Shown here: positions 1,300 through 7,744 of the stretch, one piece after another
Layout of the letters: each line of letters starts with the position of its first letter
How positions within the stretch are numbered: the first letter of the stretch is position 1
From: Candidatus Sumerlaeota bacterium
GTDB taxonomy: Bacteria; Sumerlaeota; Sumerlaeia; JAFGJS01
Reading direction: 5' to 3'
NCBI GenBank assembly: GCA_016928995.1
Contig: JAFGJS010000160.1
Span: forward strand, 1-7,744
DNA length: 7,744 nt
The notes under the pieces: generated by a model
Seen by the model: the letters and a program-made list of their open reading frames with translations, nothing else
What the model was told of the DNA's origin: nothing
Databases searched by the model: none
Made by a program: the position numbers and the translations under genes

Positions 1300-1482
1300 A
1301 TGTGTTACAGCAACTGGGATGTGCGGACAGTGTTTTCGCGGGAGGTGCTGCGGAAACGGGAAATGTGCTACCGGAAACGACGGCGGCGTTTGCCAATGGA
1401 CGGCTATTGGCGGCCGGTATGCATGAATGCATTGAAGGATGATTCGTCGATCGAAAGTTTGTTTTCGGAAATTAATTCATAA
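1300..1482 (+). CDS. Small hypothetical basic protein upstream of terminase
   Basis: A 60-residue ORF that I do not recognise. It is strongly basic in the middle (a run of Lys/Arg around residues 19-31) and ends in an acidic, Ser-rich tail (DDSSIESLFSEINS). ATG 1300 has a fair ribosome site, GGGAGG at 1285-1290 with 9-nt spacing. The stop (1480-1482) lies inside the heptamer repeat array. Its place just before the terminase is where phages often put a small terminase subunit, but no helix-turn-helix is evident and the protein is very short. A competing reading frame (TTG 1281 or GTG 1302 to TGA 1442) has more ordinary composition and overlaps ATG 1439 as ATGA. Only one of the two is likely real, and either may be a remnant. 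Confidence 0.35.
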   Translation: MCYSNWDVRTVFSREVLRKREMCYRKRRRRLPMDGYWRPVCMNALKDDSSIESLFSEINS

Positions 1483-1501
1483 TTATGAATTCGTAATTAT
1501 G
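1474..1501. repeat. Heptamer array and palindrome at the terminase start
   Basis: Four 7-bp units alternate AATTCRT and AATTATG. The first units form a perfect 18-bp palindrome, AATTCATAATTATGAATT (1474-1491), and a one-mismatch copy of its core follows at 1489-1504. The array contains the stop of the preceding small ORF and the ATG (1499) of the terminase ATPase half. It may be a short tandem heptanucleotide repeat of the STRR kind known from cyanobacteria, or an operator; the period favours the former. Confidence 0.65.
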
Positions 1502-2461
1502 AATGCCATTTCAAAAACGAGTTTGGATATGGAGTGCGTTGATTTTGTGGAGGGGGTGTTAAAAGATGGACGCGGGGAGCGGGTGCGTTGCGCGGAGTTG
1601 CACCGGTCCTGGCATGCGCATATTGATTGGTGCTGGGGGGCGGGATTGCATCCGGTGATTTTTGCGCCGTGGGGACATGGAAAGACGGTGCAAATCGTGC
1701 TGGGCCGGACGCTGTATGAATTGAGCCGGGATTCGGCGTTGCGGGTGAAGGTGGTGTGCAATTCATCGGGCGCGGCGCGGAATCGCGTGCAAATGCTGCG
1801 GTATTATGTGGAGTATGACGAGAATTTGCATGCGCGATGCTCGGCGCTGCGCAAGCCGGGCAAGCGCGGCGCGGGGCGTTGGGCGGCGATGGAGTTTTCG
1901 GTGGATGATGAGCGGGCGCTGGGGCGCGTGGATGCGAGCGTGCAGGGGGCGTCGATCCTGAGCACGGGCATCGGCGGCCGGGCGGATTTGATAGTGTTCG
2001 ACGATGTGGTAGACCGGCGCAACGCGATTGATCAACCGAAGTTGCGGGAGCGGGTGTTTGAGAATTTCTTCGAGACATGGCTTTCGCGGTTGGATGGTGC
2101 GGCGGGGCGGAGCGTGACGATTCAGACGCTATGGCATCGGGAGGATCTGGGGCATCGGTTGATGGGGAACGCGGAGTTTTGCGTGTTGAAGCAGGCGGTG
2201 AGCAGGGCGCTGGACGGGATTGAGTGCGAGCTGCTGAATGCGCGGGAGGGGCATCCGTTGCTGCAAGGCGCTGTTGATGGACGGTTCGTTCTGCCGCTCT
2301 GGGCGGAGCGTTGGGGACGCGAGGCGCTGAAGCGGAAGAAGCGGGAGAACGTGCGGGCGTTCGAGCGTGGCTTTCAGCAGCGGGCGTATACGCGCGAGGA
2401 GACGATGTTTCCGTCGTTCCGCAAGTGCCTGGTGGATTTGCGGCGGGAGGAGTTATTTTAA
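1499..2461 (+). CDS. Phage terminase large subunit, ATPase half (split gene)
   Basis: A 320-residue N-terminal motor domain of a tailed-phage terminase large subunit, which uses ATP to drive DNA through the portal into proheads. Walker A is APWGHGKT (56-63), Walker B LIVFDD (164-169) after a TGIGGRAD loop, and a motif III-like TIQTLWHRED follows at 207-216. The end of the ATPase domain, RGFQQRA (290-296) then MFPSF, is typical of the junction before the nuclease. Full-length relatives have about 500-550 residues, so the nuclease is missing; it is encoded at 3452-4096. The stop TAA (2459-2461) is supplied by the octamer repeat beginning at 2456. ATG 1499 was chosen because the 20 codons from the alternative ATG 1439 run through AT-rich repeat sequence; neither start has a well-spaced ribosome site. 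It could be an active half-protein or a decaying gene. Confidence 0.88.
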   Translation: MNAISKTSLDMECVDFVEGVLKDGRGERVRCAELHRSWHAHIDWCWGAGLHPVIFAPWGHGKTVQIVLGRTLYELSRDSALRVKVVCNSSGAARNRVQMLRYYVEYDENLHARCSALRKPGKRGAGRWAAMEFSVDDERALGRVDASVQGASILSTGIGGRADLIVFDDVVDRRNAIDQPKLRERVFENFFETWLSRLDGAAGRSVTIQTLWHREDLGHRLMGNAEFCVLKQAVSRALDGIECELLNAREGHPLLQGAVDGRFVLPLWAERWGREALKRKKRENVRAFERGFQQRAYTREETMFPSFRKCLVDLRREELF

Positions 2462-2493
2462 CGTAGAGACGCAGAGGCGCGGAGAACGCAAAG
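2456..2493 (+). repeat. Octamer repeat array, left copy
   Basis: TTTTAACG followed by units close to CGCARAGR with 8-bp period, ending ACGCAAAG. It provides the terminase ATPase stop codon. CGTAGAGACGCAGAGGCGC (2462-2480) recurs exactly at 3362-3380, and the whole array matches 5482-5519 closely in the same orientation. Confidence 0.8.
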
Positions 2494-2552
2494 ATTGATT
2501 ATGACGCTTTTGTGATTGAGGGATGGAGATTGGGCGAAGGCAGTGACTGAAC

Positions 2553-2588
2553 GCATCATCTATCGCGCTTTTGCGCGATAGATGATGC
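2553..2588. other. Perfect 16-bp hairpin
   Basis: GCATCATCTATCGCGC (2553-2568), loop TTTT, and the exact reverse complement (2573-2588). It lies 35 nt past the stop of the minus-strand membrane gene. There is no T-tract on either side, so it is not a classical intrinsic terminator, though it could still protect or end that transcript. Confidence 0.6.
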
Positions 2589-2623
2589 ACATGCCGCCGA
2601 CGCAAGCGCCGGGATTCATCGTA

Positions 2624-3250
2624 TTAATTTTTATCGGATGATCGTAAAGACCTTTTAACATCATGGAATGAGGCATGCATAAAAAATAACAGTATTATTG
2701 ACAGAAAATATATATGTCCTGGGGGCGAATATATTTTTGTTTTTGGATGCATTTCTGCGATTGTAATATCGGTGAACCACATAACTGTGCTGATTCCAAA
2801 ATAATACTGGAATAGAAGATCGATTATCACAATCGAAGCGCCGGATAAAAATGCAACTGTGAAGATCAAAGTTTTATTGTTTTTGAATATAGCGACACAG
2901 TGAGCGCTAATTATTGCTGCGAAAAGTATATCAATGAAAAGAGCAAGCGTATGAAAGATTTTGATAAAAGCACGGCGATGCAGATGGAATACGTTCCAGT
3001 ATGCCCAGTAATCAAAGATAAGGGTGAACAGAACAAAGACAAACCAAAGGAGCAACCATTTGGAGATGAGTTTTCGAAAGCGGGCAGTGTAGAGCTTGCC
3101 GGGTGATAGCGGCGTGACGCGGTGTTGCGGGTCCAGAGCGTATTGAATGGCGCCGTGGACAGCGTTGGCGAGCATGAACGCGAGCATCGCAGTGAGCGCA
3201 AATTCGATGCCGAGTTTGATCAGGGCAATGTGGTTGGATGTCGTTATCAT
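2624..3250 (-). CDS. Hypothetical multi-pass membrane protein
   Basis: A 208-residue protein that I do not recognise. It has about five hydrophobic segments: roughly residues 8-33, 64-85, 96-122, 128-152 and 178-194. Basic loops separate some of them (around 58-64 and 91-97), and the C-terminus is charged. No catalytic motif or signal-peptidase site is visible. ATG 3250 is the first start after an in-frame TAA and has no good Shine-Dalgarno sequence. It runs antisense to both terminase halves and is the only gene in the inserted segment. Codon use changes inside the gene: the first 60 or so codons are GC-rich like the neighbours, while the rest is AT-rich (many ATA, TTT, AAA and ACA codons). 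A cargo role such as phage exclusion or an envelope function is possible, but no sequence feature assigns one. Confidence 0.6.
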   Translation of the reverse strand: MITTSNHIALIKLGIEFALTAMLAFMLANAVHGAIQYALDPQHRVTPLSPGKLYTARFRKLISKWLLLWFVFVLFTLIFDYWAYWNVFHLHRRAFIKIFHTLALFIDILFAAIISAHCVAIFKNNKTLIFTVAFLSGASIVIIDLLFQYYFGISTVMWFTDITIAEMHPKTKIYSPPGHIYFLSIILLFFMHASFHDVKRSLRSSDKN

Positions 3251-3361
3251 GGTTGGTTGGACAATTTACAGATGCCTTTGTTGCATAAAATATATCGTGT
3301 GACATATTGAAGATTGCGCGGGATAGAAGCAAGGCGAGTTGTTTGAATTGCGTTTTTTTCT

Positions 3362-3433
3362 CGTAGAGACGCAGAGGCGCAAAGTTTTTGATATGCTTTG
3401 CGGCCTCCGCGTCTTTGCGCCTTTGCGTTAAAT
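3362..3433. repeat. Octamer repeat hairpin, right copy
   Basis: A direct array (3362-3384, units near CGCAGAGG) is followed after an 11-nt loop (3385-3395) by inverted arrays CTTTGCGG/CTTTGCGCC ending CGTTAAAT (3396-3433). The core arms 3369-3384 and 3396-3412 pair with one bulge and one mismatch. The inverted part is the partner of the left array at 2456-2493. Confidence 0.8.
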
Positions 3434-3451
3434 TCATTTTGGCGGTGATGC

Positions 3452-4096
3452 ATGGGGGAGTTGCCGGGAAGGCCGGAGTGGATTGTTGATGCTTTGAATA
3501 AGGGCTGGCGGTTTTGTTGCGGGGTGGATTTGAGCGGGACGGGGCGGAAGGGGAATGTAATTTTTTGCGGCGCGGTGAGCGCGAGCGGATCGCGCGTGCC
3601 GGTCGAGGTGCGTTGCGGGAAGTGGAGCAGCCCGGAACTGGCGCGGCAGCTGGATGCGATTGACGCGCTGTATGGGCCGGAAATTATCCTGGTGGAGAAC
3701 AACGGATATCAACGGGCGTTTCAGGATTGGGCGGCGGCGGATGGCGAACGGCATGCGTGGTGGGGACGCGTGAAGGGCTTCGTGACGGGACGCAACAAAG
3801 CAAATGCAACGTTGGGGCTGCCGGGGCTGGAGGTGGAGTTTGAGAACGGCGTGTGGCGCGTGCCGCGTCGGGAGTTTGCGGATCATGGCGGTTTTTGCGA
3901 TCGCGGACCGGACGGCGGCCCGTGCGGCTGGTGCCGGTGGGTGGAGGAGATGGAGAGTTATCCGCACGTGGGGAGCGACGACACGGTGATGGCGTGCTGG
4001 TTTTTTCGAGAGGCATGCCGGTTGCTAAGCGGAAGCAATGTGAATTTCCGGCGTGCGCGCATGCGGGAAGGCGAACGTGAGATGGGGAGTTTTTAA
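3452..4096 (+). CDS. Phage terminase large subunit, nuclease half (split gene)
   Basis: A 214-residue C-terminal nuclease domain with the RNase H/RuvC-like fold of terminase large subunits, which cuts the concatemer at the start and end of packaging. Acidic metal-binding positions are visible in order: D26 in CCGVDLSG, E82 in ILVENNGYQ, and D176/D177 in GSDDTVMACWF. Between the last two lies H145-x3-C149-x8-C158-x2-C161, which could bind zinc. The protein begins just before the nuclease fold, with no ATPase motifs. ATG 3452 follows a weak GGCGG (3441-3445), and an in-frame TGA at 3446 excludes an earlier start. It lies in the same phase as the ATPase half at 1499-2461, 993 nt away from stop to start. 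The preserved acidic residues argue against long decay, but expression as a separate protein is unproven. Confidence 0.85.
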   Translation: MGELPGRPEWIVDALNKGWRFCCGVDLSGTGRKGNVIFCGAVSASGSRVPVEVRCGKWSSPELARQLDAIDALYGPEIILVENNGYQRAFQDWAAADGERHAWWGRVKGFVTGRNKANATLGLPGLEVEFENGVWRVPRREFADHGGFCDRGPDGGPCGWCRWVEEMESYPHVGSDDTVMACWFFREACRLLSGSNVNFRRARMREGEREMGSF

Positions 4097-4174: not shown

Positions 4175-4495
4175 TCAGTTGCCGTACATATCGTCGTAGT
4201 CGAAGTTGTCGCTGGACGAGCCGCCGCCCGAGGATTCGTTGCGTTCGGTGTTACGAATTTCGCGCCGGACTTGCCGGTCCTTCTCATCGGCGCGGCGTTG
4301 GGCTTTGAAGGCTTCGTCCATGGCCTTGTCCATTTCGGATTTCGGGGCGTTTTCATCGTAGGGTTCGAAGCCTTTGGGCTTGGGCAGCATCATGAGGGCG
4401 ACGGCCAGAAAGACAAGAGCGGCGGCGACGATGAGCGCGGGGAGAATCCAACCGCGGGATCGCCGGCGTTGTGCAAATATTGCGTTGTGGCGCAT
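4175..4495 (-). CDS. Hypothetical single-pass membrane protein
   Basis: A 106-residue protein with no family that I recognise. A basic N-terminus (RRRSR, 10-14) precedes one clear transmembrane helix (about 16-37, alanine/valine/leucine-rich). This suggests a type II-like anchor with the C-terminus outside the cytoplasm, or a tail-in arrangement. Residues 52-83 are highly charged and probably form a helix or coiled coil. The tail (about 88-106) is Gly/Ser-rich and then acidic with tyrosines. ATG 4495 is preceded by a strong ribosome site, AGGAGGA (complement of 4504-4510), 8 nt away. It lies 116 nt downstream of the lipoprotein gene on the same strand and has a possible promoter of its own in that gap. 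The gene is well supported; its function is unknown. Confidence 0.75.
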   Translation of the reverse strand: MRHNAIFAQRRRSRGWILPALIVAAALVFLAVALMMLPKPKGFEPYDENAPKSEMDKAMDEAFKAQRRADEKDRQVRREIRNTERNESSGGGSSSDNFDYDDMYGN

Positions 4496-4611: not shown

Positions 4612-5412
4612 CTATTTGCCGAGGACGGCGAGCAGCGGACGGTGGTCGGAGGTTCCCTCGCGGATGACTCGGGCGTCGACGCATTGGAGGGGCGGGGTGA
4701 AAATAATGTGGTCGATTTGCGCGCCGAGATTCAGACCCATGTATTTATAGCGGATCGTGTGGGCGTTGTCGCGGCGCTCAATCATGGCGCTTTTCAGCCC
4801 CTGGCTACGCAGGCGCTTGACGGCTGGAGAAAAGGGGAAGTCGTTGTAGTCGCCGAGGATCACGGTGGGGAGCGCCGGATCGATGGCGGCGCAGAGCATC
4901 TGAATCTCGTTGCGCCGCATGATACGCGAGGCGTAGTAGCCGCGCAGACCCATACCGTGCTTTTCGGTGAGGCAGGGGTGCAGGTGGACGTTGAAAATCT
5001 GCACGGAACCGATGGGCGTGTCGGCCGTGGCGAGGATGTTGGGGAAGAAGGTTTCGCCTTCGAGCAGCGTGCGGGCGTTGCTGAGCGGATAGCGGGAGAG
5101 GGTGGCCGTGCCGAATTTGCGGCCGTTCCATTGGTCCGTGGCGTAGACGGCGTGCGGATATTTCGCCCCGAGGCGCTCGCGGATCAGAGTTGCCCAGGCG
5201 GCGTCGGTTTCCTGCAGGCAGACGATGCCGGCGTCGAGGGATTCGATCAGGTCGAGCGTGGCGTTTTTATCGGGATTGGATTTGAGCACGTTGTAGGTGA
5301 CGACGGTGATCGTCTCGGGCTGCGTGAGCTGCGGCGCGGGTTTGGGCATGAGTATGCATCCTGTGATGGGGAGTATGAGGATCAGGAGCGTAATGAGACG
5401 CGGTAGGCGCAT
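4612..5412 (-). CDS. Endonuclease/exonuclease/phosphatase-family lipoprotein
   Basis: A 266-residue member of the EEP (DNase I/exonuclease III/sphingomyelinase-like) superfamily, metal-dependent hydrolases of phosphodiester or phosphoester bonds. Residues 1-19 form a lipoprotein signal with lipobox ITGC, so C19 would be lipidated and the enzyme anchored outside the cytoplasm. The family signature is complete: N41 in TYNVL, E68 in LQETD, H143 in NVHLHP, D188/N190 in GDYNDFP, D234 in IDHI, and the terminal S-D-H (255-257). ATG 5412 has GGAG (complement of 5420-5423) 7 nt upstream. It is divergent from the portal gene and upstream of the small membrane-protein gene on the same strand. It looks like an ordinary bacterial surface or periplasmic gene, not a phage gene. 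The substrate (DNA, nucleotide, lipid or inositol phosphate) cannot be decided. Confidence 0.9.
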   Translation of the reverse strand: MRLPRLITLLILILPITGCILMPKPAPQLTQPETITVVTYNVLKSNPDKNATLDLIESLDAGIVCLQETDAAWATLIRERLGAKYPHAVYATDQWNGRKFGTATLSRYPLSNARTLLEGETFFPNILATADTPIGSVQIFNVHLHPCLTEKHGMGLRGYYASRIMRRNEIQMLCAAIDPALPTVILGDYNDFPFSPAVKRLRSQGLKSAMIERRDNAHTIRYKYMGLNLGAQIDHIIFTPPLQCVDARVIREGTSDHRPLLAVLGK

Positions 5413-5481
5413 GGTTTTTCTCCGGATTATGCGATGGAGAAAATTGTGCGTGATGCGGAGGAGCGGGGCAATAGCTTTTTT

Positions 5482-5519
5482 TTAACGCAAAGACGCAAAG
5501 GCGCTGAGAAACGCAAAGA
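5482..5519 (+). repeat. Octamer repeat array before the portal gene
   Basis: TTAACG followed by CGCAAAGA, CGCAAAGG and CGCTGAGA type units, ending ACGCAAAG. It has the same orientation and nearly the same sequence as 2456-2493. It contains no stop in the portal frame, so that frame stays open upstream to ATG 5434. Confidence 0.8.
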
Positions 5520-5525
5520 GCTGTT

Positions 5526-5530
5526 GGAGG
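5526..5530 (+). promoter_or_regulatory. Ribosome site fixing the portal start
   Basis: GGAGG, with an 8-nt AT-rich spacer to ATG 5539. It decides for 5539 over the in-frame ATG 5434, whose extension would be translated repeat sequence. Confidence 0.65.
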
Positions 5531-5538
5531 ATATAAAT

Positions 5539-7047
5539 ATGGGCGAGAGCGTGGCTTTGGGAGTTGTTGTTGGGGGCGGAGATATTGTGGGGAATGAGAA
5601 GGAGAACCGGTATGCGGCGATTGCGGCGCGGTGGCCGCGGATGGGGCGGTATGCGTATGGCTACAGCGGCGCGGCGTGGAACCGGATGTATGAGGCGTTT
5701 CAGGATATGCTGGACAAGGATCCGCACCTGGCGTCGGTGTTTGAGACGCGGCGCAAGGCGGTGACGGGGCTGCGCTGGGATGTGCTGCCGGATCCAAACG
5801 ATGGTGAGCGCGGCGTGCGCGCGGCGGCGCTGGTGAAGGATGCGCTGCGGCATTGCGAAAATTTCGAGGGGGCGCTGCGCGGGCTGCTGGGCGCCATCGG
5901 CTTTGGTTGGAGCGTGAGCGAGGTCGTGTGGTCGCGGCGCGAAGACGGCTATCTCGGCTTCGAGCGGATCGTGTCGCGCTGGCCGGGACGGTTCGTGTAC
6001 GATGCGGACGGGGCGCTGTGCCTGAAGAGCTCGCGGTGGGATGCGAAGGGCCGGCCGCTGCCGGAGCGAAAATTCGTGACGGCGAAATTCGGCGATGAGC
6101 ATGACAATCCGTACGGCGCGGGACTGCTGATCAAGGCGTTCTGGTTCTGGTGGTTCAAGAAAAACGCGCTGCGGTTCTGGAATCTATTCAATGAGAAGTA
6201 CGGCGCGCCGTTGGCCGTGGCGAAGCATCCGGCCGGCGCGAGCGAGGAGGTGCGCGAGCGGCTGCGCGAGGTGCTGGAGGCGCTGCAGAGCGACAGCGGC
6301 GTGGTGCTGGAGGAAGGCCAGGCGATCGAGTTCGTGCAGGCGGCGGCTTCGCGCATGGGCGTGGTGAACCATTACCGCGAGCTGGCGGAGTTCTGCAACG
6401 ATGAGCTCACGAAGCTGTTCCTGGGGGCGACGCTGGCGGTGAGCGCGGGCAAGGGCGGTTCGCTGGCGCTGGCGCGGGTGCATGAGAGCGTGCGGCAGGA
6501 TTACGTGGAGGACGATGCGCGGATGCTCATGGGCGTGGTGAACGGGCAGCTGGCGCGGTGGCTGGTGGATGTGAACTTTGGCGCGGACGCGCCGGCGCCG
6601 CGGTTCGTGATCGAAACGGAGCCGCAGGCGGACTTGAAGGAGCTGGGCGAGCGGATCGAGGCGGCGGTGAAGATGGGACTGCGGGTGCCGGTGGATTGGA
6701 TTCACGCGCAGCTCGGCGTGCCGGCGGCAGGCGAGCAGGAGCGTTCGCTGCGGTATGATGATCAGAATCTGTATCAGTACCACTTGCAGTGGGGTGTGCT
6801 GACGACGAACGAGGTGCGGCGGTCGATGGGGCTGGCGCCGCTGCCGTATGGCGATGCGCCGGCGAATCCGCTGGTGACCCGGCAGCTGGCGGAAATGGGA
6901 TTGCTGCGGCTGCCGGAAGGCAAAGGCGCGCTGGAACTGGGCGCGTCGCAGCTGTATTCATTGCGTCCGAGCGCGTTGCATGGCAGCGCGCCGCGACACG
7001 AACATGAGCCGGAGCGCGAGGAGCCGCTCAAGGCGCGGGAGGAATAG
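5539..7047 (+). CDS. Mu gp29-like portal protein (DUF935)
   Basis: A 502-residue phage portal of the Mu gp29/DUF935 type. It forms the ring at one head vertex through which the terminase pumps DNA and to which the tail joins. Recognisable parts are DPHLASVFETRRKAVTGLRW (61-80), FGWSVSEVVW (122-131), NPYGAGLL (190-197) followed by the aromatic run FWFWWFKKNALRFW (201-214), EKYGAPLAVAKHP (219-231), and LTKLFLGATLAV (290-301). The helical stretch VHESVRQDYVEDDARML (314-330), usual for the family, precedes the wing/stem end. The C-terminal 30 residues are charged and probably disordered. Length matches Mu gp29, and no frameshift is seen. In phages this gene directly follows the terminase; here 1.4 kb with two minus-strand genes intervenes. 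No capsid, protease or Mu F-like gene follows. Confidence 0.93.
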   Translation: MGESVALGVVVGGGDIVGNEKENRYAAIAARWPRMGRYAYGYSGAAWNRMYEAFQDMLDKDPHLASVFETRRKAVTGLRWDVLPDPNDGERGVRAAALVKDALRHCENFEGALRGLLGAIGFGWSVSEVVWSRREDGYLGFERIVSRWPGRFVYDADGALCLKSSRWDAKGRPLPERKFVTAKFGDEHDNPYGAGLLIKAFWFWWFKKNALRFWNLFNEKYGAPLAVAKHPAGASEEVRERLREVLEALQSDSGVVLEEGQAIEFVQAAASRMGVVNHYRELAEFCNDELTKLFLGATLAVSAGKGGSLALARVHESVRQDYVEDDARMLMGVVNGQLARWLVDVNFGADAPAPRFVIETEPQADLKELGERIEAAVKMGLRVPVDWIHAQLGVPAAGEQERSLRYDDQNLYQYHLQWGVLTTNEVRRSMGLAPLPYGDAPANPLVTRQLAEMGLLRLPEGKGALELGASQLYSLRPSALHGSAPRHEHEPEREEPLKAREE

Positions 7048-7148: not shown

Positions 7149-7238
7149 CCCAGGCCGGCGCTCACGGCCGCTTTGCGGCCTACGCTCTGGCCTGGGCTAC
7201 GATCTTAAGCGCTTTCAGCGCTAATAAGGAGCCATGAT
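7149..7238. repeat. Hairpin repeat cluster, copy B (nested hairpin)
   Basis: An outer stem CCCAGGCC (7149-7156)/GGCCTGGG (7189-7196) encloses an inner perfect stem GGCCGC (7166-7171), TTT, GCGGCC (7175-7180). Then comes AGCGCT-TTC-AGCGCT (7208-7222) and ATAAGGAGCCATGAT. Bases 7212-7238 match 100-126 with one difference. It has the same order of parts as copy A, with the CCAGG hairpin loop enlarged by a second hairpin. Confidence 0.7.
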
Positions 7239-7688: not shown

Positions 7689-7744
7689 ACGGGGTGGTCA
7701 CGTGTTCTTTGAGAATACAACTGCTGGCGTGGCGAAGCCAAGCG

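Follow-up and report, generated by a model that had tools for sequence, protein, structure and literature searches.

The large terminase (TerL) of tailed phages, in the two-domain form typified by PHROG 38, T4 gp17, G20c and PhiV-1, joins an ATPase to an RNase H-like nuclease. The locus described herein lies in a window of 7,744 nt (the whole stretch of DNA analysed) and resembles these systems in that the motifs of both domains are intact and a Mu-type portal gene neighbours the terminase. It differs from them in that the two domains are carried on separate ORFs, with approximately 1 kb of non-phage DNA between them.

Rickettsia palindromic elements are selfish repeats that reside inside protein genes. 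The present locus is similar in harbouring a palindromic repeat within a protein-coding gene, as does a relative with an in-frame repeat insert (L024), but here the repeat terminates the reading frame and brings no extension of the protein. These elements are named in PMC10969869, where dispersed palindromic intergenic elements of the REP/BIME and MITE-like types are reviewed. As with the latter, the repeat family of the window is present in many copies, forms hairpins from inverted pairs and lies mostly behind gene ends; unlike them, it shows no consistent target-site duplication and is, at this locus, tied to a cargo gene. A further comparison is with fractured phage genes, which are accompanied by split inteins or homing endonucleases according to Dassa et al. 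(2009), as cited in PMC12350094 and PMC6892783. The likeness is that of a conserved phage gene divided into two ORFs through inserted DNA, and the gap of one relative (L016) does contain a nuclease gene; however, no intein or homing endonuclease is present at this locus, and its cargo is an unrelated minus-strand gene set between host repeats. Within the open-access literature the phrase 'split terminase' returned no match, and the 'split into two' cases examined in papers from a broader search did not concern terminases. The locus is a fairly clear case in which host dispersed repeats, joined by cargo, have entered a phage gene between its two domains and turned it into two intact domain genes. 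Apparent two-gene terminases in the family, with another, recurrent split point, make the need for a covalent motor–nuclease link testable.

Two intact halves of a large terminase

The ATPase half of TerL (1439–2461, plus strand, 340 aa) and its nuclease half (3452–4096, plus strand, 214 aa) were each assigned by PHROG profile, alignment and AlphaFold model. In the profile search the first ORF matched positions 274–530 of phrog_38 (E = 2.5e-20) and the second positions 530–699 (E = 3.3e-7), so that the break in TerL coincides with the boundary of ATPase and nuclease, and zero profile positions are lost. The clean separation of ATPase from nuclease described in the initial annotation is therefore borne out, and the ORF coordinates likewise place both halves in a common phase, as had been claimed, approximately 1 kb apart. 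Alignment shows an intact Walker A (APWGHGKT), Walker B (LIVFDD) and coupling motif (TLWHREDL) in the ATPase half, together with retention of the acidic residues of GVDLSG, VEN and SDDTVMACWF in the nuclease half. AlphaFold models, for which the input consisted solely of the window and fetched-locus sequences and was small (mean pLDDT of 79 and 75), resemble the PhiV-1, HK97, P74-26 and T4 gp17 terminases for the ATPase half, and the T4 gp17, G20c and RB49 nucleases for the nuclease half. Both the ATPase domain and the RNase H-like nuclease domain of a TerL are accordingly present, albeit not as one polypeptide, as the ATPase ORF stops at 2459–2461 and a new ORF runs from the ATG at 3452. Third-position GC is 0.71–0.72 in both halves, with a coding-like composition by codon position. 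Taken with the open frames and the catalytic motifs, this indicates either that the gene was broken recently or that its products can still work as a pair of chains.

Fused and separated terminases among homologues

Homologues were drawn from one Planctomycetota MAG (L024) and approximately 40 IMG/VR loci. Within this set the ATPase and nuclease share a single ORF at 32 loci (a few of which overlap or are near-identical), and in none of the homologues does a split fall at the linker between the two domains. Secondary breakage of a fused gene is for this reason well supported, and on sequence comparison the window's TerL appears to have been continuous once and interrupted later at the inter-domain linker. 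Neither an empty allele nor a close relative was found in the 38 other genomes of the class that were searched, so the borders of the insert and the order of events are inferred. A nuclease-profile search of 39 genomes of the class returned one distant match besides the window (E = 8e-6), ATPase searches gave weak matches in five further genomes (four from the class, one from outside), named phage records yielded distant matches only, and no TerL paralogue was found elsewhere in the window's own genome.

Eight relatives carry the nuclease on a separate ORF (L016, L021, L081, L084, L093, L108, L112 and L116; L084 grouped with L118, and L112 with L120). These ORFs begin some 10 residues before a PLW motif of the (I/L)P.(W/F) type, which places the break approximately 65 residues upstream of that in the window and leaves the PLW..FxRGF linker region with the nuclease. 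The ATPase half is on the same record in five of the eight, overlapping the nuclease ORF in L021 and separated from it by approximately 1 to 1.5 kb in L093 and L016, 5.5 kb in L084 and 16 kb in L112; none was found on the records of L081, L108 and L116, which may be fragments. The recurrence of this arrangement suggests that TerL can be viable in the form of two chains, a suggestion that concerns the relatives and carries no evidence on the window's copy. With these relatives as a hint, it is possible that the two halves in the window also function as two chains. The fuller proposition, that the terminase still works as separately translated motor and nuclease chains without a covalent link, host repeat DNA having caused this split and others having arisen independently in a TerL clade that tolerates them, is rather doubtful.

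The same relatives bear on whether the window simply retains an old, natural two-gene terminase of its phage lineage, in whose gap the repeats and a cargo gene (ORF208) gathered later. The existence of eight separate nuclease ORFs, five of them sharing their record with an ATPase ORF, would fit such a history, as would the intact appearance of both halves in the window and the frequency with which the dispersed repeats lie behind ORF 3′ ends (see below). The break itself is not shared, however, since every split in the relatives falls before the PLW motif; moreover, the stop of the ATPase ORF is supplied by the repeat, and both ORFs keep one phase. We regard this history as unlikely.

Several relatives display insertions of their own. 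In L016, positions 1223–2622 between the halves hold genes for an HNH/NUMOD3-like nuclease and for an N6/N4 DNA methylase, with no Rfam intron match. The ATPase ORF of L093 (461–2377) contains, besides the split, an intein-like insert of approximately 320 residues at Walker A (GAGKC-LGPETELLEK...). The fused terminase of L024 has an in-frame insert at approximately 5673–5935, consisting of dispersed repeats of two types, namely octamers of the CACAGAGG type and TGTCATTCTGAGCGGAGCGAAGAATC, and located near the loop where other relatives split. From these three cases the TerL family can be seen as a frequent insertion target.

A dispersed palindromic repeat family at the break

The break is associated with a repeat family of approximate consensus TTTAACGCAAAGACGCAAAGGCGC, the core of which occurs in 79 copies in this genome, compared with 14 for a reversed control (≤2 mismatches). 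Copies are present on many contigs, and the core also occurs in several further genomes belonging to the class. Only one viral contig was found to contain an exact 24-mer from the repeat. Many arms are arranged as inverted pairs that form hairpin units with the termini TTT(A/C)-ACGC...GCGT-(T/G)AAA, and the family has the attributes of REP/BIME- or MITE-like elements, with many hairpin or inverted-pair copies that are intergenic and often behind gene ends. Arms lie just behind ORF 3′ ends in 18 of 41 instances, as against 4.3 % of random positions. Examples are found at L033, L045 and L066, often with one arm for each gene of a convergent pair; in a few cases (L038 and L039) the repeat copy itself furnishes the stop codon.

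Within the window, a left arm occupies 2452–2480 (plus strand), the insert beginning with ATTTTAACGTAGAGACGCAGAGGCGC, and the TTTTAA of this arm forms the TAA stop of the ATPase ORF. A complete hairpin unit of the family follows at 3352–3437 (z = −5.7), approximately 15 nt before the ATG of the nuclease. Positions 2452–2480 and 3352–3380, the latter being the plus arm of the hairpin unit, constitute a direct repeat of 26 identical residues in 29, at a spacing of 900 nt and flanking ORF208. Both plus arms contain 19 identical bases, the variant CGTAGAGACGCAGAGGCGC, which among all genome copies at ≤2 mismatches is private to 2462–2480 and 3362–3380.

The length of a shared run also matters to the question of whether short reads were misjoined at repeat copies. 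Runs of 19 bases are short relative to common assembly word sizes. An artefact of this kind might be entertained on account of the identity between the two arms and because the MAG comprises 161 contigs, of which the window is a short one, yet the halves agree in strand and phase, stand in the correct order and lack no profile position, and we consider misassembly most improbable.

The insert and its cargo gene

The inserted DNA extends from 2455 to approximately 3451, as delimited by the fused homologues, by composition and by the repeat arm at its left end; at the right border, no repeat marks an edge where the nuclease codons begin. Its GC content is 36–50 %, compared with approximately 60 % in both TerL halves. 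The cargo gene, ORF208 (2624–3250, minus strand, 42 % GC), has no match in Pfam, PHROG or NCBIfam, and has weak relatives on the chromosomes of two other members of the class (G008 and G028). On the basis of hydrophobic stretches judged by eye, it probably encodes a small membrane protein. Inside the insert at 2553–2588, 3′ of ORF208, lies GCATCATCTATCGCGC, an inverted repeat with perfect arms of 16 bp and a 4-nt loop. A promoter and terminator scan of the insert gave a result no greater than that for shuffled sequences. No transposase, integrase or other mobility gene was matched in the insert, although a non-autonomous element would need none, and neither a homing endonuclease nor a reverse transcriptase was matched there.

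The last of these observations touches upon the idea that excision of the insert at the RNA or protein level, as an intron or intein, restores a full-length terminase. Precedents of a sort exist in the nuclease and methylase genes within the gap of L016 and in the intein-like insert at Walker A in L093. In the window, though, Rfam gave no match up to an E-value of 1, such that no group I or II intron is recognised, and the ends of the halves have no intein-like sequence. The intron or intein explanation was consequently rejected, its probability being very slight.

The junction and the 9-nt near-duplication

The initial annotation had drawn attention to a near-duplication, GGAGGAGTT at 2446–2454 and GGGGGAGTT at 3454–3462 (both plus strand, the latter overlapping the nuclease start codon), and had read it as the target-site duplication of a single insertion into an intact gene. 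The 9-mers are indeed identical at 8 of 9 positions, 1008 nt apart and at equal codon position, and joining the flanks in a script reproduces the proposed reading LRREEL-PGRPEW. At a hypothetical empty site, the ATPase side would end ...CGGCGGGAGGAGTT and the nuclease side would begin GCCGGGAAGGCCGG....

Matches of this quality are nevertheless at chance level. When codon-aligned pairs of 30 nt are drawn at random from these phage genes, 11.5 % contain an in-phase match of 8 in 9, and such a match in any phase arises in approximately 16 % of random 40-nt pairs. The window is G-rich and contains five occurrences of GGAGGAGTT at ≤1 mismatch where 1.8 are expected. The left 9-mer adjoins the repeat arm, and the right one lies approximately 21 nt past the end of the repeat; hence the element is not bordered at either end pair by an abutting direct repeat above chance. 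A consistent target-site duplication is, furthermore, absent from the other units of this family.

A single mobile element of approximately 1 kb that left a 9-bp target-site duplication would account for the shared phase of the 9-mers and the open frame restored on joining them, for the position of the left copy against the repeat arm, and for a joined junction that falls inside the range of the fused relatives. It accords poorly with the chance-level match, the offset of the right copy, the behaviour of the sister units, the want of a matched mobility gene in the insert and the private direct repeat within it, which indicates two steps. This explanation is consequently held to be improbable, and of the original proposal the interruption of a once-continuous TerL at the linker stands, whereas the single event with target-site duplication lacks support.

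The accompanying statement that no residues are missing or extra at the junction holds in part. The span from FERGF to GVD is 54 residues in the joined protein, within the 42–65 found over all fused relatives; however, most of the closest fused relatives have 42–48 (L082 has 59), so that the joined protein exceeds most near relatives by 6–12 residues. Given this surplus, a few of the codons adjoining the break may be later additions or changes.

Proposed order of events

The reading that we favour, and consider probable, is that of a prophage-remnant TerL, originally a single ORF, which was secondarily interrupted at the linker by a repeat unit and then by cargo. A compact repeat unit would first have entered the linker codons, its TTTTAA end giving the ATPase a stop. 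A segment of approximately 880 nt with ORF208 would then have entered via recombination at a repeat arm, and its entry would have duplicated the arm, so that one copy flanks the cargo on each side. The restart of the nuclease half would be at the ATG at 3452. That at least two steps took place is suggested by the private direct repeat of 26 in 29 at 900-nt spacing. The order, from repeat unit to ORF208 segment, is the simplest reading of the arrangement, and gene conversion, instead of cargo entry, could have produced the shared private variant.

Phage context of the terminase

Between the nuclease and portal genes is a second non-phage block (4097–5538), bounded by repeat-like sequence on the left and by a repeat arm on the right. 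It encodes a 106-aa ORF (4175–4495, minus strand) and a protein of the endonuclease/exonuclease/phosphatase family (4612–5412, minus strand), and is thus arranged like the insert, with minus-strand non-phage genes between repeat-like ends. With regard to the relatives, the nuclease and portal genes overlap or are separated by <30 nt in six, and are approximately 280–2100 nt apart in seven others; given such variability, the second gap is by itself unremarkable. The portal protein is of the Mu type (Portal_Mu, PF06074, E = 8e-98; 5434–7047, plus strand), and its ORF runs in frame through the repeat arm FFLTQRRKGAEKRKE at 5485–5504. The real start may therefore be the ATG at 5539, or the repeat may extend the protein.

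A Phage_Mu_F gene, which would have pointed to a prophage of greater completeness, was not found elsewhere in the genome (a MAG that is 92 % complete). Host-type genes both flank and interleave the packaging genes on the contig, which ends at 7744, and the locus is likely a prophage remnant. Near both contig ends, at 76–126 and 7188–7238, there is also a second dispersed-looking repeat of 51 nt (...TTTCAGCGCTGATAAGGAGCCATGAT), the two copies of which are 78 % identical.
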